Made by a program: the position numbers and the translations under genes
Shown: in pieces, positions 49,523-61,954 of the stretch
How positions within the stretch are numbered: the first letter of the stretch is position 1
Layout: each line of letters starts with the position of its first letter
Origin: Pelagicoccus sp.
GTDB lineage: Bacteria; Verrucomicrobiota; Verrucomicrobiia; Opitutales; Opitutaceae
Direction: 5' to 3'
Length of the DNA: 64,000 nucleotides
Assembly: GCA_028284635.1 (NCBI GenBank)
Contig: JANQRJ010000067.1
Location: 62,001 to 126,000, forward strand
Notes under the pieces: model-generated
Told to the model about the DNA's origin: nothing
What the model saw: the letters and a program-made list of their open reading frames with translations, nothing else
Database searches by the model: none

Positions 49523-50071
49523 ATGAACTTGCGCACGAGCGGAATCCGGATTGCCCTTGCGGCAGTCTTGCTGACAGGCAATGCCGCTCCGCTTCTGCAA
49601 GCCAAGGCCGTTGATCAGGCCCAGATTCAAGCCGCGATGACGCTGCAGTTTCTCAGCTTCACCGCTTGGCCAGGAGACCCGGACAAGAAGCTGATAAACA
49701 TCGGCGTTTTCGAGGACGAAGAGAGCTTCAAGGTTTTCGAAGGGATGCTGCAGGACGAACGCTATCGCTATCGATACGACGTGACTCTGGTGACTGCTCA
49801 GTCCAGCAGCGAAAGCCTTCGAAACCTCGATGCCCTCTTTTTCCCAAAGGCGGATCCCGTGGGCGTGCCTCGGGCAATCCGGCGACTGGAAGCAAGGCCC
49901 GTGGTGCTGATCGGCACCTTCGAGGGCTTTTTCGACATGGGTGGCATGGTCACCTTCATCAAACGGCAACGCAGGCTCGGCTTCGAAATCGACGTCGGAA
50001 GGTCCCGAAGCCTCGGCATCGAATACCGAGCGAAGCTGCTGCGACTGGCAACCCGGATAGTAGGAGAATGA
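49523..50071 (+). CDS. YfiR family (DUF4154) periplasmic protein
   Basis: IQAAMTLQFLSFTAWPGDPDKKLINIGVFEDEESF ... MVTFIKRQRRLGFEIDVGRSRSLGIEYRAKLLRLA. Confidence 0.8.
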   Translation: MNLRTSGIRIALAAVLLTGNAAPLLQAKAVDQAQIQAAMTLQFLSFTAWPGDPDKKLINIGVFEDEESFKVFEGMLQDERYRYRYDVTLVTAQSSSESLRNLDALFFPKADPVGVPRAIRRLEARPVVLIGTFEGFFDMGGMVTFIKRQRRLGFEIDVGRSRSLGIEYRAKLLRLATRIVGE

Positions 50072-52005
50072 GCGAAAAGACCCCATCGCGCCAAACCACC
50101 TACCAGCAGCGCTACCGCAGCCTTCCGCTGGCCAAAAAGCTGCTGGTCATCATCGCCGGTTCGAGCCTGCTCATGGCATCCCTCGCCATGTTCGCCTCTT
50201 TCTTCATCGAGCTGAACTTCTTCCGCAACCGTCTCTTGGAGGAGTACACCGGTACCGCTCGCATGCTCTCCACCAATCTCGAAGCCGCCGTCGCCTTCGA
50301 GGACGAACGCGACGCCTCCGATCTGCTCGGCGCCTTGCGCAAACGCGAATTCGTATCAACCGCCGCAGTCTATCTTCGCGACGGGACGATGCTTGCCAGT
50401 TACCGCCACCCGGACCTCGACGCCAGAACAAAGGCTCCAGAGTTCTCGACGGAAAACGAACTAGGCCAAGACTTCCTTACCATCAGCGAACCCATAAGCA
50501 TCGCCGACAAGCCAATTGGGCGCCTCGTGCTGAGAGCCAACCTGGGAGAGACCGCCTCCTTTCTCACGACTCGCGCCTGGATGCTGCTCGCCGTGCTGGG
50601 ACCGTGCTTTCTTCTCTCCGTCTATCTCGCCGCCCGCCTCGGACGCCGCTTCTCCCTGCCCATCCAGGAGCTGGCCAGCACCGCCCAGCGAATCACCGAG
50701 CACCATGACTTCACCACCCGGCAGAAGCGCGTCAGCGACGACGAAACCGGCAAGCTGGTGGACGCCTTCAACGAAATGATCGCCGAGATCGGGGCTCGCG
50801 AACAGGAGATCCTCAAAGCGAAGGAGAAAGCCGAAGCCTCCAGCCGGGCCAAGGACGACTTTCTATCCGTAGTCAGTCACGAGTTGCGCACTCCCCTGAA
50901 TCCAATTATCGGATACGTCGAAATCCTGCTCCGCCGCCTGAGCGATGCCGAAGACAAAAAGCAGCTCGGTCTGGTCAAGCAGTACGCCGAGCACCTGCAG
51001 GGGCTTATCGACAACGTCATAGACTACACGCGAATCGAGCGGGTCGCCCACAATCTGAACAAGGAGCCGGTAGACTACCGCAGACTCTGCCAAACCGTCA
51101 TCGAGCTCCTCAAACGGGATGCCGAGAAGAAGGGAATCGCCCTCAACTGCTCCCACAGCTTCGCAAACGAGCGACTCGAGGGCCGCTCGACCATCCTCTC
51201 GGATCGGGTCAAACTGCAGCAAGTATTTCTGAACTTGGTGACCAACAGCCTGAAGTTCACCGACTCTGGCTCGATCAGCCTCACCACCCGGTTGAGCGAG
51301 AACGAAACCGGAGCCACCAGTCTACTCGTAGAAGTGGCGGATACCGGAATCGGTATCGCAGAGGCGGACCGCGAAAAGATCTTCAAGCCCTTCTCCCAAA
51401 TCGACGAAAGCCTGACCCGACAGCACGCCGGCATGGGCCTGGGTTTGGCCATCACCCAGAAGATCGTAAAAGCGATGGACGGTCATATCGACTTCAGCAG
51501 CGAGCGCGGGGTCGGCAGCACCTTCGTGATCGAGTTGCCGGTGGAGTTGAGCGAGATTCCAGAACTGGATCCCGCCCGAGTCGTCACGACGCTCTCGAGC
51601 TCCTCCGACACCAAAGGGCGAGTCCTGCTAGTGGACGATCAGATGGTAAACCTCGAGCTCGCCGAATCCCTGCTCACCGACAGCGGCCAAGACGTCGTCT
51701 GCGCCCGCAGTGGGGCCGAGGCCATCGAAAAGGCAAAGCAGGAAATCTTCAGCCTAATCATCCTGGACATCAAGATGCCGAAGATGAGCGGCTATGAAAC
51801 TGCCGAAAGACTGCGCGAACTTGAGCGAAACCGCCGAGAGCGCACTCCCATAATAGCCATGACCGCTCACGTGACAACGCGAGGCAGCGAGCAATGCTTC
51901 GAAGCCGGCATGGACGACTTTCTCGCCAAGCCCTTCAATACCGAGAAACTCAACCTCATCCTGAGCAAGTGGCTGCGCGTCAGCCCCAAGGCGTCATCGG
52001 ATTGA
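50068..52005 (+). CDS. Hybrid sensor histidine kinase (CHASE8-like, HAMP, HisKA, HATPase, REC)
   Basis: FLSVVSHELRTPLNPIIGYVEILL, HAGMGLGLAITQKIVKAM, LLVDDQMVNLELAESLL; ATGA overlap with the yfiR-like gene sets the start. Confidence 0.9.
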   Translation: MSEKTPSRQTTYQQRYRSLPLAKKLLVIIAGSSLLMASLAMFASFFIELNFFRNRLLEEYTGTARMLSTNLEAAVAFEDERDASDLLGALRKREFVSTAAVYLRDGTMLASYRHPDLDARTKAPEFSTENELGQDFLTISEPISIADKPIGRLVLRANLGETASFLTTRAWMLLAVLGPCFLLSVYLAARLGRRFSLPIQELASTAQRITEHHDFTTRQKRVSDDETGKLVDAFNEMIAEIGAREQEILKAKEKAEASSRAKDDFLSVVSHELRTPLNPIIGYVEILLRRLSDAEDKKQLGLVKQYAEHLQGLIDNVIDYTRIERVAHNLNKEPVDYRRLCQTVIELLKRDAEKKGIALNCSHSFANERLEGRSTILSDRVKLQQVFLNLVTNSLKFTDSGSISLTTRLSENETGATSLLVEVADTGIGIAEADREKIFKPFSQIDESLTRQHAGMGLGLAITQKIVKAMDGHIDFSSERGVGSTFVIELPVELSEIPELDPARVVTTLSSSSDTKGRVLLVDDQMVNLELAESLLTDSGQDVVCARSGAEAIEKAKQEIFSLIILDIKMPKMSGYETAERLRELERNRRERTPIIAMTAHVTTRGSEQCFEAGMDDFLAKPFNTEKLNLILSKWLRVSPKASSD

Positions 52006-52020
52006 ACCAGAACGCCTCCC

Positions 52021-52092
52021 CAAAAGTAGCCGAAGTCGACAGGCTTTGGATACAGGCATAGAACCAAAATCTGTCGACTTCGGCTACTTTTG
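52021..52092. terminator. Long inverted repeat between convergent genes (bidirectional terminator candidate)
   Basis: CAAAAGTAGCCGAAGTCGACAG (52021-52042) is the exact reverse complement of 52071-52092; 22-bp perfect arms, 28-nt loop. Confidence 0.75.
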
Positions 52093-52105
52093 AGCTGCCC
52101 CTAAC

Positions 52106-53725
52106 TTATGGACAGAGGGCCCGCAAAAAGAGCTTCTCCTCAACAGGAACGGAAGCGACTCGCTTGGAATACGAAATTTCTTCCGTTCCCCAATCTCGAA
52201 GTTCGGAGCTCGTTTGCAACTCGCCGGAAAATTCGACCTTCAGCGTCGAACTGCCTGGCTGCGGCGGACGCAGCGCGAGAGTTGGAGTCGCCACGCCTTT
52301 CACGCGGCGAACGACGCCATCATGCTTGTTCGTCAAATAGAGTCCGCCAGACATGTTTACGCCGAAGCGCAAATCCGCCCGGGATGAAGACGCCAAGCCT
52401 CGACGAGACCGGGCCGCATTGACGAGTTCGAGGAAGCGAACGGCTTGGCCGTTCTCGTCGAGCAAGGCGAGTTCGGTCAACCCGTCCTGTCCGCCGTCGA
52501 ACGGGTCGCCATCTACATCGAGGAGAAATATCAGACCAGTGGGAAAATCGCCCAGCGGAAGCTTCCCCGAAAGCTCCGGAGCGCAAACACTGCGTACCAC
52601 TTCGCCCACGGTCACCGCCCGATTGGGAATCACTGTAGGTGGATCGACTACCAGGTTGAAGTGATCGTATTCGGAAATCGGATTCACGAGGCCAGAACTG
52701 TCGCCGCCCTCGAAGGGGAAGCTTCCCTCGCGATTATCCCAGCCGAAGTTAAGGCCGTTTCCAGCGAGGTTGATCTCCTCCACCGCATTCTGCCCAATAT
52801 CCGCGATGTAACACCTGCCAGTCTCTGAATCCCAGCCAAATCGCTGTGGATTGCGCAGACCGTAGCAGTAGATCTCAGGAATCGTATTCGGATCGCCATC
52901 CGCAGCAAATGCGTTTTCGAGCACAATCCCGTAGTTCCCATTTCGCCCATCGGAACCGAGCGGATCGATTCTGAGAAGCGCTCCATAGGGATTGGACGTA
53001 TCCTGACCGTTCTCCTGCGGATCCCCACCAGAACCGCCATCGCCCATGGCGATGTACAGGTCTCCGTATTCGGAATCCTGTGACACGGTCAGAGGATTGA
53101 AAGCGATAAGGCCAGCATTGTGATTGCCGAAAGGCTGCTTGAAACGGATCAACTCGCGGTAAGGGGTTTGCTCGTCGGCGGCAGAGAAGAAGTTCGCTTC
53201 GGGTTCGCTTGTACGCCACTCCAAGAGTAGCGTGTGAAACGAAGTACTGCCGCCTGGATCGAAGTCAGGCTGAGCATCCGTATTGCCAGAGCTATGGATC
53301 GTGTAGAAGCGACCAAAGCCAGGAGACGATTCGTCATGAAAGTCCGGATGAAAGGCAAAGCTCTGAAAACCGGCTTCGTTCGTGGAAACGAGAGCGAGTT
53401 CCGCAAAGTCGCGCAAATCGAGGTACTTGGAGACAAAGCCGCTCGATTCGTCGATGGCATAGAGGGGACCCCTTTGATCGTTTGCGAAGAGACGACCGCC
53501 GGGCTCCCGGATAAGAACGCTCACGCGCGGCGGCTGGCCAGGCGAAGAATCTGGGAGCGTGGCGACATCTTCGACAGCCACGCCTATACCGCTTGGTGGA
53601 ATCGGCGCGGGAAAGCGATCTTGGCTGAAAGCGCCCGCAGCGAGGAGCGCAAGGAAGAGCAGGACTGCATTCCGACAAGGCCGCATCCCTATTAGGATCG
53701 CCGCAAGGTTTACGCGTTCCCTCAT
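52106..53725 (-). CDS. PQQ-dependent sugar dehydrogenase (glucose/sorbosone dehydrogenase family)
   Basis: ALVSTNEAGFQSFAFHPDF ... FGNHNAGLIAFNPL ... YGLRNPQRFGWDSETGRCYIADIGQNAVEEINL. Confidence 0.88.
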   Translation of the reverse strand: MRERVNLAAILIGMRPCRNAVLLFLALLAAGAFSQDRFPAPIPPSGIGVAVEDVATLPDSSPGQPPRVSVLIREPGGRLFANDQRGPLYAIDESSGFVSKYLDLRDFAELALVSTNEAGFQSFAFHPDFHDESSPGFGRFYTIHSSGNTDAQPDFDPGGSTSFHTLLLEWRTSEPEANFFSAADEQTPYRELIRFKQPFGNHNAGLIAFNPLTVSQDSEYGDLYIAMGDGGSGGDPQENGQDTSNPYGALLRIDPLGSDGRNGNYGIVLENAFAADGDPNTIPEIYCYGLRNPQRFGWDSETGRCYIADIGQNAVEEINLAGNGLNFGWDNREGSFPFEGGDSSGLVNPISEYDHFNLVVDPPTVIPNRAVTVGEVVRSVCAPELSGKLPLGDFPTGLIFLLDVDGDPFDGGQDGLTELALLDENGQAVRFLELVNAARSRRGLASSSRADLRFGVNMSGGLYLTNKHDGVVRRVKGVATPTLALRPPQPGSSTLKVEFSGELQTSSELRDWGTEEISYSKRVASVPVEEKLFLRALCP

Positions 53726-53747
53726 TGGCGAAAACTGGAGGCAAGCG

Positions 53748-55850
53748 CTAGAATGCGAAGCCCGAGGATACCGTGATCCGGCGGCCCGGACCTATGTGGC
53801 CACGATCGTAGAGCAAGCCGTTCACAGGGTTGCTGGGATAGCGTATCTCGGAATCGAATACATTGGTCACATGCACGTTCAGAAAGAGCCCTTGCCAGAG
53901 GTCATCCCAACGGACGTTCAAATCGAGCAAAGCATATCCATCCACCGCATCTCCGATGAAGCCCACAGGAGCTGCCGTCTCGCCCGTATTGAAAAGCGGA
54001 TACATGCTGTCGACATAGCGAGCCAAAGCTGCTGCGGAAAAGGAATCCTTCTTGTAGGACACCTTGCCATGCATCACCAGCTCCGGCGAGTAGCTCGCAA
54101 TGCCAGTGGGGTGGAACTCGTAGTTCGAATCCTGCCAGGTTGCCCCAAACTCGGTACGAATGTAGTCGCCGAAATTGCGGCGCAGCAACAGCTCGACCCC
54201 GCTGGTATCGACGACGCCTCCAGAGATTAGATCCGATTCAACCGAACCGTCAGGATTGAGTTCGACCTGCTCGATCTGCAGATTCTTATTCGAGTTGAAA
54301 AAGATGCCGATACTGAAGAGGAAATCCTCGGACGAGCCGGTATAGTTGGCCTCGAAAGTCCGAACCCGTTCATTGCCAACCGCGGGTTGGGGGAAACTGG
54401 GAATCTTGATCGCGTCACCCGCCATAAGCTTGAAGACGGAGGATTCCGAAGGCTGGTAGATCAAGGAGGCCCGCGGCGTGCCGTTGTAGAATCCGCCTCG
54501 AGGGAGAACCTGCACATCGTCGGGAGCGGCAACCACATTTTCGATGAAAACGCGCTCGAAAGGTCCGAGTTGCTCGTAACGATAGCCGCCCACCAACCGC
54601 CACTCCTCGGAAAGCCGGTAGCTGACCTGGGCGAAGATGGACTCGTTGTCGCGGTGATCGACCGAAAGAACCTCATTGTCCGCACCAAAGCCGGGGACGA
54701 AGGTGAACTCATAGAAGTTCTGCATGCGCTGAAGATTGACGCCACCAACCACCTTCAGATCGGCAGACGGCTTGTAGCGGAAAAGCGACTCAAGCTCCCA
54801 CGAGTTGAAGTCGCGGGTGTTGAACCCAGGGAAATCCGGAGTGAGCGCTTCGAAGAACTGATCTTCAGCAAAGTCGCTGTAGATAATTCGCGTATCCCAG
54901 GAAAGATCGCCTGTAAGCGCTGCTTCGTAGCCCAAAGCTAGCCGAGTGACATTGGTCTCCAGCAGATGACCCTCCTGTACGGCCGGGACCAACGGCAGGA
55001 ATTCAATCCCCGAATATCTATGACTGACGTCAAAATAAAGATCGCGCCAAGCGCCCGCGATCTGCAGGTGACCGGTTTCCTGCTCCAGGCGACCGTCGAG
55101 CGAAGAGTTCTCGTCCGTGATATTGAAGAAGGGCAGCAACGCCTGATTCGCCGGACTCATCAGCTCCTTGATATCGTAGTCGAGACCCCCGCTACGCGAG
55201 AAGCCCGCATTGACGATGATGTGAAAGTCATCGCCAAATTCCGACCAGCGGATCGACGAACGCTTCGTATCCAGACTTCCATACGAAACGGTGACCATGT
55301 CCTCCGAATAGGAGTCGTCCGTAATGATATTGATTGCTCCGAAAGACGCTCCGTTGCCGTAGATAACGGAATTCGGGCCACGCGAGATCTCTATGCGATC
55401 GATCGCTTCCACCGGAACGTTGAACAAATTCATCGGAGTCGACGACTCGTCCGGCCGAGCCTGCGGGATTCCGTTTATCAGAATAGCGACGCTGCTGTTT
55501 TGCGAGCGGTTGTTCCAAAAGCCGCGGATGCCGAAGTTGCCGCTCAGGCCGAAGTTGTTGTCTATATTGTAGAGGCCAGGCACGTTCTCCAAAACCTCCG
55601 ACAAACTCTGGTAGCCGTACATCGCGATTTCGTCGCGCGTCACAAGATAGACGCTCGCCGGAGTATCGCGGATCGTCTCAGGTACTTTGCCTGGAGTCGT
55701 CACTTCCACCCGCATCAGCTCGTCGAGCGAAAGCGCAGCGATATCAAGCTCCTCCGCTTGCGAAGCAGATAGAGCAAGCAGCGAACCCCATGCAAACGCT
55801 CCAGCGGGTCGAAAAGAAAAGCGAAAGGCGCAGAAGTTCGAGGTTTTCAT
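53748..55850 (-). CDS. TonB-dependent receptor
   Basis: SLDELMRVEVTTPGKVPETIRDTPASVYLVTRDEIAMYGYQSLSEVLENVPGLYNID (plug), C-terminal GHIGPGRRITVSSGFAF barrel end. Confidence 0.92.
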   Translation of the reverse strand: MKTSNFCAFRFSFRPAGAFAWGSLLALSASQAEELDIAALSLDELMRVEVTTPGKVPETIRDTPASVYLVTRDEIAMYGYQSLSEVLENVPGLYNIDNNFGLSGNFGIRGFWNNRSQNSSVAILINGIPQARPDESSTPMNLFNVPVEAIDRIEISRGPNSVIYGNGASFGAINIITDDSYSEDMVTVSYGSLDTKRSSIRWSEFGDDFHIIVNAGFSRSGGLDYDIKELMSPANQALLPFFNITDENSSLDGRLEQETGHLQIAGAWRDLYFDVSHRYSGIEFLPLVPAVQEGHLLETNVTRLALGYEAALTGDLSWDTRIIYSDFAEDQFFEALTPDFPGFNTRDFNSWELESLFRYKPSADLKVVGGVNLQRMQNFYEFTFVPGFGADNEVLSVDHRDNESIFAQVSYRLSEEWRLVGGYRYEQLGPFERVFIENVVAAPDDVQVLPRGGFYNGTPRASLIYQPSESSVFKLMAGDAIKIPSFPQPAVGNERVRTFEANYTGSSEDFLFSIGIFFNSNKNLQIEQVELNPDGSVESDLISGGVVDTSGVELLLRRNFGDYIRTEFGATWQDSNYEFHPTGIASYSPELVMHGKVSYKKDSFSAAALARYVDSMYPLFNTGETAAPVGFIGDAVDGYALLDLNVRWDDLWQGLFLNVHVTNVFDSEIRYPSNPVNGLLYDRGHIGPGRRITVSSGFAF

Positions 55851-56225: not shown

Positions 56226-57137
56226 GTGACGACCACCAAAGCCATCTTCGCGCGCGCCACTACGCTCTGCCTCCTCCTCCAGGCAGGCGCCCTCGCCCTC
56301 ATCGGCCTGCCAGCCCTGGAGCCGCAACGCGCTTTCCTCATCTCCCAGCTCCGCCTCGAACCTTACGGGCTCTGGATAATCCTCTCCATCTTCCTGCTGC
56401 TTGTCAGCGTCGTAGCCCTATGCCGGCTCGACAAGAAGGCAGGCGAACCGCTCCGCGACCTGTCCCACCAAGCCCAAGCCGGAGCTCCGAATTCCCTACG
56501 CCATCTCAGCCACTGCCGGGAAGAGCAGATCCTGCGCGACTTCATCCAGCAACTTAGCACTAGGAATTCCGCCCACGCCGAGCGCGTTTCCGAACTCGAA
56601 GAGGAACTGAGCAAAACCGCCGACGAACGCGACGCCTCCCTCGCCAAGCAAGCCGAAACCGAGACTCTTCTAAAGGACTTCGCCCGCATCCGCCAGGAAC
56701 TGAGCATCGAGAAGGCCAGCCTCGCCGCAGCCAACCAGACCCTCGAACAATCCCTCCAACTCGAACGCCGGGCCAAGGTCGGCGTCGAAGTCGAACGCCG
56801 CAGCGAGGAAATCTACCAGCAAATGGAGCGCGCCATCTCCGCCGCAGCCCTCCGCTCCATCTGGCTGCCCAACTTCGTCGCAGAGCTCCGCACTCCCATC
56901 ACTATTATCCAGGGGCTCGCTCGGCGCATGGAAACGCATTGGGACGACACCTCGCTCGCTCACCACCACGAAAGCCTCCGGGAGATTCTCCACCAAAGCG
57001 AGGCCCAGCTCAAGCGACTCGACGAGACCATGTCTCGCATCGAGCTTCAGAAAGTCGATTCTGCGCCGACCACCAACTCGGAATCCGAGTTCGAGACTGG
57101 CGAAAAACCGCACCTAGCCGCATCCCCGACCGCCTGA
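56226..57137 (+). CDS. Two-TM coiled-coil protein with degenerate HisKA-like domain and no HATPase
   Basis: TM segments, long coiled coil, then FVAELRTPITIIQGLARRMETHW (H-box with His replaced by Ala); paralogous to 57169-58017; start GTG. Confidence 0.65.
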   Translation: MTTTKAIFARATTLCLLLQAGALALIGLPALEPQRAFLISQLRLEPYGLWIILSIFLLLVSVVALCRLDKKAGEPLRDLSHQAQAGAPNSLRHLSHCREEQILRDFIQQLSTRNSAHAERVSELEEELSKTADERDASLAKQAETETLLKDFARIRQELSIEKASLAAANQTLEQSLQLERRAKVGVEVERRSEEIYQQMERAISAAALRSIWLPNFVAELRTPITIIQGLARRMETHWDDTSLAHHHESLREILHQSEAQLKRLDETMSRIELQKVDSAPTTNSESEFETGEKPHLAASPTA

Positions 57138-57168
57138 AGCAAGCGAGCTCCGCCAACCGAAACGAACT

Positions 57169-58017
57169 GTGAAAGACTCCAAGACCATTCTTCTCCGCTA
57201 CCTGCTGCTCGCCGCCGCTCTGCAGGTAGCGGTCATCCTCTTTCTTGCCCTTCAGCCCCTCGAGCACATCCGGGCCACAGTCGCCGACGCCATCCGTCTC
57301 CCCGCGCACACGCTCTGGATTCCACTGCTCGTTCTCCTCGTCGGCAGCGATTTGCTCATCCTCCGCCGACTCGATCGTCTCCTCGCCAAGCCCTTTCAGC
57401 AGCTCGTCAGGCAAACTAAGCACGGCAACTCGAACTTCGCCTTCAAAACCAGAAGCATGAACCTCGAGGAAGACCACCTGAAGCACTTCGTCGAGAGCCT
57501 CTCCCTACGCCACGGCGAAATGGAGCAAGAGCTCGTGCGCATGGAAACCGAATTGGACAAGGCCGTCGCAACCTCAAAAGTCTCTCCCGAACAGCTCGAC
57601 CAGCTTAACGCCAAGCTCGAAAAAGCCGGCCAAGACAGCGAGGAGCTCCTCCGCCAAATCGCCGAGCTCGAAAAGGCCAAGTCCGCCGTCGAACGCGAGC
57701 TCGGGACCACCCGCTCGAATCTCCGCCTCCGCTCCCAGGAACTCACTGAACTGCAAAACGCCACCATGGGACGCTCCAGCGGGACGAGCCAAGATGCCAG
57801 CCCCTCCTCCATTCTCATCGAAAAGCTCAGAAACCCTCTCGCGCTGATAAGCAACCTCGCCTGGCGTCTCGCCAAATCCTGGGATGAAACCCCCATGGCC
57901 CAGGTACGCGAGGGACTGGAAGAAATCAGCAAGCAATCCCAAGAGCAGCTCGAACTGCTCAAGAAATACCAAAACCTGTCCCACGACGCCAACGAGCCAA
58001 AGCAGGACGCCCAGTAG
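57169..58017 (+). CDS. Two-TM coiled-coil protein with degenerate HisKA-like domain and no HATPase (paralogue)
   Basis: ILIEKLRNPLALISNLAWRLAKSWDETPM aligns with H-box region; same TM/coiled-coil layout as the upstream gene; start GTG. Confidence 0.65.
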   Translation: MKDSKTILLRYLLLAAALQVAVILFLALQPLEHIRATVADAIRLPAHTLWIPLLVLLVGSDLLILRRLDRLLAKPFQQLVRQTKHGNSNFAFKTRSMNLEEDHLKHFVESLSLRHGEMEQELVRMETELDKAVATSKVSPEQLDQLNAKLEKAGQDSEELLRQIAELEKAKSAVERELGTTRSNLRLRSQELTELQNATMGRSSGTSQDASPSSILIEKLRNPLALISNLAWRLAKSWDETPMAQVREGLEEISKQSQEQLELLKKYQNLSHDANEPKQDAQ

Positions 58018-58183: not shown

Positions 58184-59389
58184 ATGAAGTCAGCTCCTCT
58201 TCCTGCCAACGAGTCCGAACGGCTCGCCGCCCTCGAACGCTACGGCATTCTGGATACGGAAACCGAAGAGCTCTTCGACAGTATCGCCAAAATCGCCGCC
58301 ACCATCTGCGATGCCCCGGTAGCATTGATCACTCTCGTCGACGAGAAACGCCAGTGGTTCAAGGCTGCCGTAGGTCTCGGAATCCCCGAAACCTCGCGAG
58401 ACGTCGCCTTCTGCGCCCACGCCATACTCGAACCAAATAAGCTGCTGATCGTCCCCGACTCTACCAAGGACGAACGCTTCCACGACAACCCGCTCGTCAC
58501 CGGCGAACCCAAGGTACGTTTCTACGCTGGAGCCCCAATCGTCACCTCGGACCAGCACGCCCTCGGCTCGCTCTGCGTCATCGACTACCAGCCTCGCAAG
58601 CTCTCCCACCGGCAACAGGACGCCCTGCGTAAGCTCTCTATCCAAGTCTGCGCCAATCTGGATCTGCGTATCCAGGCCAAACGCCTCCAACAGCTGAACG
58701 AAACCAAGAATCGGCTCTTCTCCGTGATCTCCCACGACCTCCGCTCGCCTCTCTACTCCATGATCTCCCTCATCGAGCTGCTGAGCGACGACGAAGGCGG
58801 CTTCTCCGAAGCGGAAAAAGCGAAGTTTGTACAGCACCTGCAAAACAACGCCGAGACCACCCTGCAGATCGCGGAAAACCTGCTCAAGATGGCCCAGTTC
58901 GAAGAAGGCAAATTCCACTTCGCGCCCAAGTACCTCGAACTCGATCGAATCATCGAAAACGCCAAGAACACCGTGGCCAGCAAACTCGAAGGCAAAGGCA
59001 TCAAACTCTCCAGCAGCTGCCCGCCAAACGCCACTGTCTGGGCAGACGTCGCCATGCTGCAGTCGATCGTGCAGAACCTTCTTTCCAACGCCTCCAAGTT
59101 CACTCCCAACGGAGGCTGTATCGACATTTCCGTTACGCAAAACGACGACATGCAAGTCGTCTCCGTACGCGACACCGGAGTCGGCATGAAGCCAGGCGCA
59201 CTGCAAAACCTCTTCAAAATCGAAGCCTGCTACTCCACCGAGGGCACCGACGGCGAAAAAGGCTCCGGTCTCGGTCTGACCCTCTGCCGCCAATTCGCCC
59301 GCCGCCTTGGCGGCGATCTCGTCATCGATTCCACCTTCGGCCAAGGCACCGTCGCCACCCTAACCGTGCCGATCGAAGAACCGGAGTAA
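58184..59389 (+). CDS. GAF-domain sensor histidine kinase
   Basis: GAF ALERYGILDTETEELFDSIAKIAATICDAPVALITLVDEKRQWFKA; H-box FSVISHDLRSPLYSMISLIELL; GSGLGLTLCRQFARRLGG. Confidence 0.9.
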   Translation: MKSAPLPANESERLAALERYGILDTETEELFDSIAKIAATICDAPVALITLVDEKRQWFKAAVGLGIPETSRDVAFCAHAILEPNKLLIVPDSTKDERFHDNPLVTGEPKVRFYAGAPIVTSDQHALGSLCVIDYQPRKLSHRQQDALRKLSIQVCANLDLRIQAKRLQQLNETKNRLFSVISHDLRSPLYSMISLIELLSDDEGGFSEAEKAKFVQHLQNNAETTLQIAENLLKMAQFEEGKFHFAPKYLELDRIIENAKNTVASKLEGKGIKLSSSCPPNATVWADVAMLQSIVQNLLSNASKFTPNGGCIDISVTQNDDMQVVSVRDTGVGMKPGALQNLFKIEACYSTEGTDGEKGSGLGLTLCRQFARRLGGDLVIDSTFGQGTVATLTVPIEEPE

Positions 59390-59393
59390 AAGA

Positions 59394-59476
59394 ATCTTCA
59401 TCTGCTACTGCTTCTTCATCTACTTCTAAGCTCGTTTTTGAAGAAGAAGCAGAAGTAGAAGCAGATGAAGATGACA
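59394..59476. repeat. CTTCATC-type hairpin repeat running into the start of the next gene
   Basis: ATCTTCATCTGCTACTGCTTCTTCATCTACTTC vs reverse complement of GAAGAAGAAGCAGAAGTAGAAGCAGATGAAGAT (33-nt arms, 5 mismatches). Confidence 0.8.
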
Positions 59477-60343
59477 CCTCCCTTACAACTCCTCCTCACC
59501 CATCCCGGTGGCGCCCACAAGGACGACTTCCTAGCCTGCTGCGTTCTGCTCGCCGAAGCCCCAGTCCCCATCGAGCGACGCGAGCCCGAAGCCTCGGACC
59601 TCGAGGACCCGACCATCGCGATCATCGACGTCGGCCACCAGCACGAGCCCGCTCGAAGCAATTTCGACCACCATCAGTTTCCCCCAGATCAGACGCCCAC
59701 CTGCTCCCTCTCGCTCGTCTTGCAGCATCTCGGACTCTACGAAGACGCCAAACTCTTCTGCGACTGGCTGGAACCCGCCGAATGGTTCGACTGCCGAGGT
59801 CCGAACGAGACCGCCCGTCGGCTCGAGATAGACCGCGATACGCTCGCCAAGCTCAATTCACCCATCGATATCGCCCTCCTACGACGCTTCGCCCTCGAGC
59901 AGCGCCTCGAACCCAGCCACCCCCTGTGGGAAATCATGCGCATGATAGGCCAAGACCTCGTCGGCTATCTACGCGGCCTAAGGGAGCGGCTCGAATTCAT
60001 CGAAACCCATAGCAAGATCCTCGACCTGCGCAACGAGAGCGGGGCCTCACGCCAATTCCTTTACATTCCTCGAACCAACCCGCTTCCCGAAGAACCCTCC
60101 GCCGGGCTCGGTCAGTATCTCAAGGCCCACGGCCTAGAAGAGAGCATCGTCGGCTCCATCTACCCCGATCGTCGCAGCAACGGGTATGGAATTTCTCGAT
60201 ACAACGATCACCCCGGTCTCGACTTCACCCGCATTGCCGAAGAGCCCGACGTGCACTTCGCCCACAAAAGCGGCTTCCTCGCCAAAACCAGCGCCACCGA
60301 ACTGGAACGACTCAAGCAACTCGCCACCCTAAGCCTAAAATAA
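59465..60343 (+). CDS. MYG1/UPF0160 (DHH-like) family protein
   Basis: LLTHPGGAHKDDFLACCVLLAEAPVPIERREP ... IAIIDVGHQHEPARSNFDHHQF; start may be 59471. Confidence 0.75.
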   Translation: MKMTPPLQLLLTHPGGAHKDDFLACCVLLAEAPVPIERREPEASDLEDPTIAIIDVGHQHEPARSNFDHHQFPPDQTPTCSLSLVLQHLGLYEDAKLFCDWLEPAEWFDCRGPNETARRLEIDRDTLAKLNSPIDIALLRRFALEQRLEPSHPLWEIMRMIGQDLVGYLRGLRERLEFIETHSKILDLRNESGASRQFLYIPRTNPLPEEPSAGLGQYLKAHGLEESIVGSIYPDRRSNGYGISRYNDHPGLDFTRIAEEPDVHFAHKSGFLAKTSATELERLKQLATLSLK

Positions 60344-61271: not shown

Positions 61272-61703
61272 TCACTTCAGCGGGTTTGTCCACTTAACGC
61301 CAGACATCCGACCAAAGTCGGCATCGTTCGAATGCACGCAGGCCTGGCACTCGACGGCGTGAGCCGCGATCAGCGCATCCGTAGTCGCATTCCCACCATT
61401 GCCGCACTCTCCCAAGATGCGGAAAAACTCGACGAACGTACTTCGACCGGCGGACAGAATCTCTACATTTGGACGCTCGAGCCACTCGAGCGTTCTACTT
61501 CGCGCATCATCGATAGACATTGGCTCTTCATTGATGCTCGGATGCGTCACGATCCGCACGAAGCCAAGTAGCGCCACGGATGGAATACCCACCACCTCGA
61601 CCCCAGACAAGGCCTCCTGCCACCATTCCTTTGCCTTCTCGAAATAAGGCGAACGGCTGTCGTAAGCATAGACCAAGAGATTGACGTCCGGCACTATCAT
61701 CAC
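61272..61703 (-). CDS. vapC: PIN-domain toxin (VapC family)
   Basis: MIVPDVNLLVYAYDSRSPYFEKAKEWW ... NATTDALIAAHAVECQACVHSNDADFGRMSGVKWTNPL; overlaps antitoxin stop. Confidence 0.85.
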   Translation of the reverse strand: MMIVPDVNLLVYAYDSRSPYFEKAKEWWQEALSGVEVVGIPSVALLGFVRIVTHPSINEEPMSIDDARSRTLEWLERPNVEILSAGRSTFVEFFRILGECGNGGNATTDALIAAHAVECQACVHSNDADFGRMSGVKWTNPLK

Positions 61704-61954
61704 TCTTTGGTCCGTGCCGCTTCCGTCTCCATCTGGTCGTAAAGCTTGTTCAAGCTGACACTCCGATAGGATTTTTTCAGACCTAAAGGATGACTCTTAA
61801 CGACAAAACGCGATGCTTTGCCCGCTTCGTTCTGCCGGACCCAGCCCAGCCGCAGCGTCTCATCGAGCACCCGTTTGAATGGCACCCGTCGCCGCCCCGC
61901 CGCTTCTCGCAGTTCCGCTAAAAGCGCATCATCGATGTCCACAGTAGTTCTCAT
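61700..61954 (-). CDS. vapB: Ribbon-helix-helix antitoxin (VapB-like)
   Basis: MRTTVDIDDALLAELREAAGRRRVPFKRVLDETLRLG. Confidence 0.85.
   Translation of the reverse strand: MRTTVDIDDALLAELREAAGRRRVPFKRVLDETLRLGWVRQNEAGKASRFVVKSHPLGLKKSYRSVSLNKLYDQMETEAARTKE

Follow-up and report, generated by a model that had tools for sequence, protein, structure and literature searches.

Two adjacent genes of a marine Pelagicoccus genome, which we call A and B, encode degenerate membrane histidine kinases that have lost both the phosphoacceptor histidine and the catalytic domain. The two proteins belong to a lineage-restricted pseudo-histidine-kinase family found in Pelagicoccus and two related genera, and B, judged from its sequence, is itself a pseudo-histidine kinase, since it descends from a kinase, has lost the catalytic residues and is held under purifying selection. 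By analogy with DivL or RocA, we propose that B acts as a membrane-anchored dead-kinase adaptor that works by docking and allostery, a reading to which we give slightly better than even odds (roughly 0.55).

Two membrane proteins that end at the DHp hairpin

In the window, by which we mean the whole 64,000-nucleotide stretch of contig JANQRJ010000067.1 that was analysed, gene A (56226..57137, + strand, 303 aa) is followed by gene B (57169..58017, + strand, 282 aa). Both begin with GTG, and the start of B is supported by its orthologues, which begin at the same residue. The layout is common to the two proteins: two transmembrane segments (at about residues 13-31 and 48-66 in A, and at about 7-25 and 41-59 in B), a HAMP-like stretch, a coiled coil and a C-terminal DHp hairpin. 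The loop between the hydrophobic segments measures only about 15-20 residues and, since a stretch of this length in the periplasm leaves no room for a ligand domain, the input signal of B is obscure. The HAMP-like linker of B (residues 71-115, 57379..57513, + strand) was assigned by inspection and has no Pfam match, while its DHp hairpin occupies residues 212-268 (57802..57972, + strand).

At the place of the H-box, alignment puts VAELRTPI in A (56877..56900, + strand), with Ala219 (codon 56880-56882) instead of the phosphoacceptor histidine, and IEKLRNPL in B (57817..57840, + strand), with Glu218 (codon 57820-57822). The A motif keeps the Glu at +1 and the Thr at +4. In the B orthologues the acidic residue at +1 is replaced by Lys or Arg, which makes kinase or phosphatase chemistry of B's own very unlikely. 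A Pfam scan found no CA (HATPase_c) domain with N, G1 and G2 boxes in either protein. The preliminary description of this locus had proposed just such a pair of tandem paralogues, derived from HisKA, non-phosphorylatable at the usual site and devoid of an ATPase domain, and our analysis bears out each of these points, including both open reading frames and their membership of one family. NCBIfam holds no family naming A or B, a search of gene B against plasmids gave no match, and a promoter and terminator scan of the locus returned nothing beyond chance.

Descent from HisKA

Pfam, a family profile and Foldseek together establish that A and B carry a two-helix DHp hairpin homologous to HisKA. 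Against Pfam HisKA, A scored 24.2 bits in hmmscan (E 3.6e-5), just below the cut-off of 26.9, and 27.9 bits, above it, in the whole-genome search. B reached 15.0 bits in hmmscan and 16.6 bits in the genome search, passing in neither, and it is assigned to HisKA despite these scores because of family homology and structure. A family profile (A3) built from 18 members, neither A nor B among them, found the HK853 DHp domain among the PDB entries (E 2.1e-6) and placed His260 in the H column of the family; separately, it hit the CA domain of a different kinase (3a0t, E 2.5e-4). In the AF2 model of B, residues 213-237 and 243-273 form a helical hairpin, and a Foldseek search of 350,542 PDB chains with this model returned histidine kinases as its best 17 matches, 16 of them HK853, with probability up to 1.00, yet with an E of only 0.07. 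With the model of A, 13 HK853 entries took ranks 1-13 in the PDB. The AF2 models of both proteins have low overall confidence (pTM 0.24-0.26). A direct hhalign comparison of B orthologues with orthologues of the GAF histidine kinase that follows B in the window gave a weak result (probability 4.5%), so that the DHp claim for B rests on the remaining tests. By profile and by fold, Thermotoga HK853 (PDB 4jas, 2c2a, 3dge) is the nearest solved DHp domain to the A/B family; unlike A and B, it combines DHp and CA in an active kinase that has His260 in place.

Loss of the histidine is unusual in this genome, since 48 of its 50 HisKA matches above cut-off keep it. The other two are A, with Ala, and a Gln-bearing match (G000:C104:89393-89587, L152), which reads VVGQELRTPL and lies within a 638-aa open frame.

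B is conserved while A is unstable

An orthologue of B is present in all eight Pelagicoccus genomes, at 39-48% identity to the window copy, and each has Glu at the phosphoacceptor position, encoded by GAA in some and GAG in others. Synonymous sites are near saturation among these orthologues. The two best-conserved regions are the DHp hairpin and the HAMP-like region, with pN/pS of 0.30 and 0.33, compared with 0.59 for the transmembrane part, 0.66 for the coil and 0.98 for the linker. The orthologue survey and the pN/pS values rule out a recent decay of B, because the gene is found in every genome, its Glu never varies and its DHp is the part best kept. For A, descent from a histidine kinase is likewise supported; the protein that shows purifying selection is B.

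That Glu218 never varies is in itself nothing unusual, given that 20 of the 57 positions of the DHp are the same in all B orthologues. The first DHp helix of B holds three invariant polar residues, Glu218, Asn229 and Arg233 (offsets 0, +11 and +15), all on the phosphoacceptor face. Offsets +11 and +15 correspond to A271 and T275, residues of the HK853/RR468 interface whose mutation rewired response-regulator binding (title of PDB 4jas/4jau). A hand calculation puts the chance of three such residues falling within a 60-degree arc at about 0.08, and higher when the hydrophobic core face is left aside, so we take this pattern as suggestive only.

The history of A is different. Its position is filled in seven of the eight genomes and empty in G005. 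In five of the seven other species the protein measures 190-201 aa and lacks a DHp, and in G006 the H position is occupied by Asp, which leaves Ala to the source genome only. Of the Ala and Glu at the H position, therefore, the Glu is conserved and the Ala is not, and the pairing of the two as a system is contradicted by all seven other species.

Neighbours and candidate partners

The conserved gene order runs from a YfiR-HK1-TonB cassette through an alpha/beta hydrolase-like gene to A, B and MYG1, with a MAP gene beyond. In the window, the cassette, made up of a YfiR-like gene, a hybrid histidine kinase and a TonB receptor, adjoins A/B at 49523-55850. The open reading frame of the kinase, HK1, spans 49666..52005 (+ strand) when counted from the first in-frame start, its true start being probably near 50000. 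HK1 lies beside A/B in seven of the eight genomes; the stretch available for the eighth (G006) stops short of it. The source genome departs from this order: a GSDH-like gene (52106-53725) lies between the kinase and TonB genes of the cassette, and the alpha/beta hydrolase-like gene otherwise conserved upstream of A is missing from the locus. Further down, a two-gene unit on the - strand (61272-61954) resembles, by inspection, a VapB/VapC-type (PIN domain) toxin-antitoxin pair.

MYG1/UPF0160 (59465..60343, + strand) directly follows B in the other seven genomes, with no GAF gene between. This conserved adjacency fits a reading in which B does not signal at all: it would be a membrane-anchored coiled-coil protein whose DHp hairpin persists only to dimerise or to serve as a scaffold, for instance for the MYG1 product or for an envelope process. 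The long coiled coil of B and the loss of every catalytic feature agree with such a role. However, a scaffold of this sort does not account well for a coil and transmembrane part that are far less conserved than the HAMP-like and DHp signalling ends, nor for a conserved polar phosphoacceptor face. We regard this explanation as the most serious competitor of the adaptor reading, and still as unlikely, at something like one chance in four.

In the source genome, and there only, a GAF-HisKA-HATPase kinase (58184..59389, + strand) stands between B and MYG1. The preliminary description saw in A and B paired Ala and Glu decoys that would hetero-dimerise with this adjacent kinase and regulate it. The kinase is indeed intact (Pfam), it adjoins A/B on the same strand, and an effect of a pseudokinase on a related kinase has a precedent (PMC9491836). 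But its orthologues (54-58% identity) are located elsewhere in six other species, and G002, which has both A and B, holds none at E <= 1e-60. Since the kinase adjoins A/B in one genome only, it is probably not part of their system, and on the gene-neighbourhood survey we reject it as their cognate partner. Moreover, the kinase has no transmembrane or HAMP segment resembling those of A/B, and the A half of the supposed pair is missing or DHp-less in six of eight species and carries Asp in a seventh. Paired decoys are thus a very improbable explanation, and the linkage to the GAF kinase on which it was built does not extend beyond this genome.

Returning to an adaptor role for B, we consider HK1 a better candidate partner than the GAF kinase. 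No response regulator gene adjoins B in the loci read, which weighs against the adaptor reading.

A family caught at different stages of loss

Profile searches find the family in three of the 49 genera of the taxonomic family, in no further genera of the order (273 genomes) and nowhere else in the phylum (289 genomes). The residue at the H position varies widely across its members (H, A, D, E, G, N, Q, R or S). In a third paralogue of the source genome, C (L063:5946-7355, 470 aa), SLVHELKTPI is retained and the CA-like C-terminal domain matches TIGR02966 PhoR at E 7.5e-6; for a relative, the match is to PnpS (E 2.1e-6). According to the alignment, C has lost or altered its N-box, G1, G2 and ATP lid: NLLxNAxK has become NMVGSAVE in the N-box, GLGL has become ALDL in G2, and the lid is absent. 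C occurs in six of the eight Pelagicoccus genomes, with H, H, H, Q, Q and N at the H position. In the tree, A, B and C form separate clades, and the branch to the remaining six A proteins is long. G001 carries, at a different locus (L064:5827-6675), an additional B-like copy that has diverged, with Asn at the H position and no CA.

No orthologue, homologue or other family member with both the histidine and an intact CA domain was found, so that the recent decay which the preliminary description named as a refuting outcome is not seen. L004 and L032, the intact kinases examined from A's weak matches, resemble it only in a generic pre-DHp and DHp region and not in the transmembrane part, so that no intact ancestor was found. 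Could A and B then simply be the degenerating leftovers of a kinase? The five species in which A has no DHp and the one in which it is absent would suggest so, as would the relatives in the related genus g48 whose reading frames are interrupted by stops (G054, G237). Against this stand the intact open reading frame of B in all eight species despite saturated synonymous change, the pN/pS of 0.30 in its DHp and the want of an intact ancestral form in any species, and we find decay highly improbable. The least likely explanation of all would have A act on a response regulator, by dephosphorylation or sequestration, through the E-x-x-T pair of HisKA phosphatases, retained in its AELRT after the histidine had gone, because this pair without His occurs in the source species only, B has Lys or Arg at +1, and A has no CA domain, which HisKA phosphatase activity normally also requires.

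In the g48 genomes, family copies split by in-frame stops or truncated, with the flanking genes kept, are seen at L070 and L071 (G054), L119 (G237) and L117 (G238). These are smaller genomes, and the broken copies indicate that the family is dispensable there. A second g48 paralogue lies between MsrP-like/MsrQ-like genes and a dienelactone hydrolase (L112:3906-7594, L114:5038-8724, L116:4539-8071, L113:309-3063), the hydrolase being seen downstream in L112, L114 and L116. Its place in this cluster is a hint, not proof, of a redox link.

A model for B

The adaptor reading builds on homology, motif loss, the orthology of B, purifying selection and the conserved Glu, which are demonstrated at the level of sequence. 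The ancestor would have been a TM-HAMP-coiled coil-DHp-CA kinase that lost catalysis: its CA domain degenerated or was deleted and its phosphoacceptor histidine drifted. B would be what remained of it, a kinase reduced to sensor and DHp bundle and fixed with Glu. We envision B as a membrane-anchored homodimer in which the HAMP-like region and coiled coil set the state of the DHp bundle. Because the HAMP-like and DHp ends are the most constrained parts of a protein that has lost catalysis, we take it that B continues to pass a conformational state on to this bundle. The non-phosphorylatable DHp could still dock a partner, either a response-regulator receiver, in the way DivL binds DivK~P, or a catalytic histidine kinase, in the way RocA binds CovS, and B would thereby modulate another two-component pathway without chemistry. 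A, for its part, may evolve faster, be partly redundant with B and be on the way to losing its DHp. A bolder version, which we find doubtful, would reduce the kinase to a TM-HAMP-DHp switch and have the permanently charged Glu of B form a constitutive docking surface resembling phospho-His, making B a signal-dependent response-regulator trap or activator gated by HAMP and coiled coil, using no ATP and representing a clade-specific class of dead transmitters.

Comparison with known pseudo-histidine kinases

One close conceptual relative is DivL, the Caulobacter pseudo-histidine kinase that binds DivK~P and needs neither phosphorylation nor its CA domain (PMC4211667). Like B, DivL has a DHp with a conserved residue other than His at the phosphoacceptor position, in its case Tyr (PMC4211667). 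But DivL has PAS domains and keeps the N, G1, F and G2 motifs, whereas A and B have neither PAS nor CA; the DivL-family layout of PAS followed by a DHp-CA with Tyr is absent from them in the Pfam scan, Ala and Glu standing in its place. The sequence relation between DivL and A/B was compared at the level of HisKA only.

RocA of Streptococcus pyogenes is a membrane accessory pseudokinase that acts through CovS; a CA-less form complements on overexpression, and replacement of the candidate His by Ala is tolerated (PMC7028121, PMC7380576). RocA shares with A and B a membrane setting and a DHp-like region, and also keeps a degenerate CA region. It has six transmembrane helices, which suffice alone, and it retains its His, whereas B has two transmembrane segments and a strongly conserved DHp with Glu. 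The six-TM sensory domain and DHp-CA-like C-terminus of the RocA family are thus not found in A/B, with their two segments and no CA.

In ChrS_CA-fs of Corynebacterium glutamicum, a product of laboratory evolution, the CA domain is truncated and the DHp kept, and the protein raises output through HrrS; its His is still there and is not needed (PMC9491836). Two-hybrid contact was seen for native ChrS with HrrS, not for truncated ChrS (PMC9491836). A and B resemble this protein in having lost the CA and kept the DHp, and differ from it in the missing His and in not coming from the laboratory. Taken together, DivL, RocA and ChrS_CA-fs show that a kinase devoid of catalysis can act via a response regulator or via a second kinase.

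Literature searches turned up no paper that connects histidine kinases with Pelagicoccus and, in the open-access literature, no account of DHp proteins that stand alone without a CA. The A/B family adds a new, lineage-restricted form to a type of protein already known, the pseudo-histidine kinases. Only a few isolated examples of these are on record in bacteria; here an entire family confined to one lineage can be seen, and its paralogues stand at different stages of loss: His with a degenerate CA, a non-His residue with a degenerate CA, DHp only, and no DHp. In one subfamily, B, the absence of the CA and the Glu at the phosphoacceptor position have become fixed. Thus, the evolution of a kinase into an adaptor, and the role of a DHp without chemistry, become directly testable in culturable marine bacteria.
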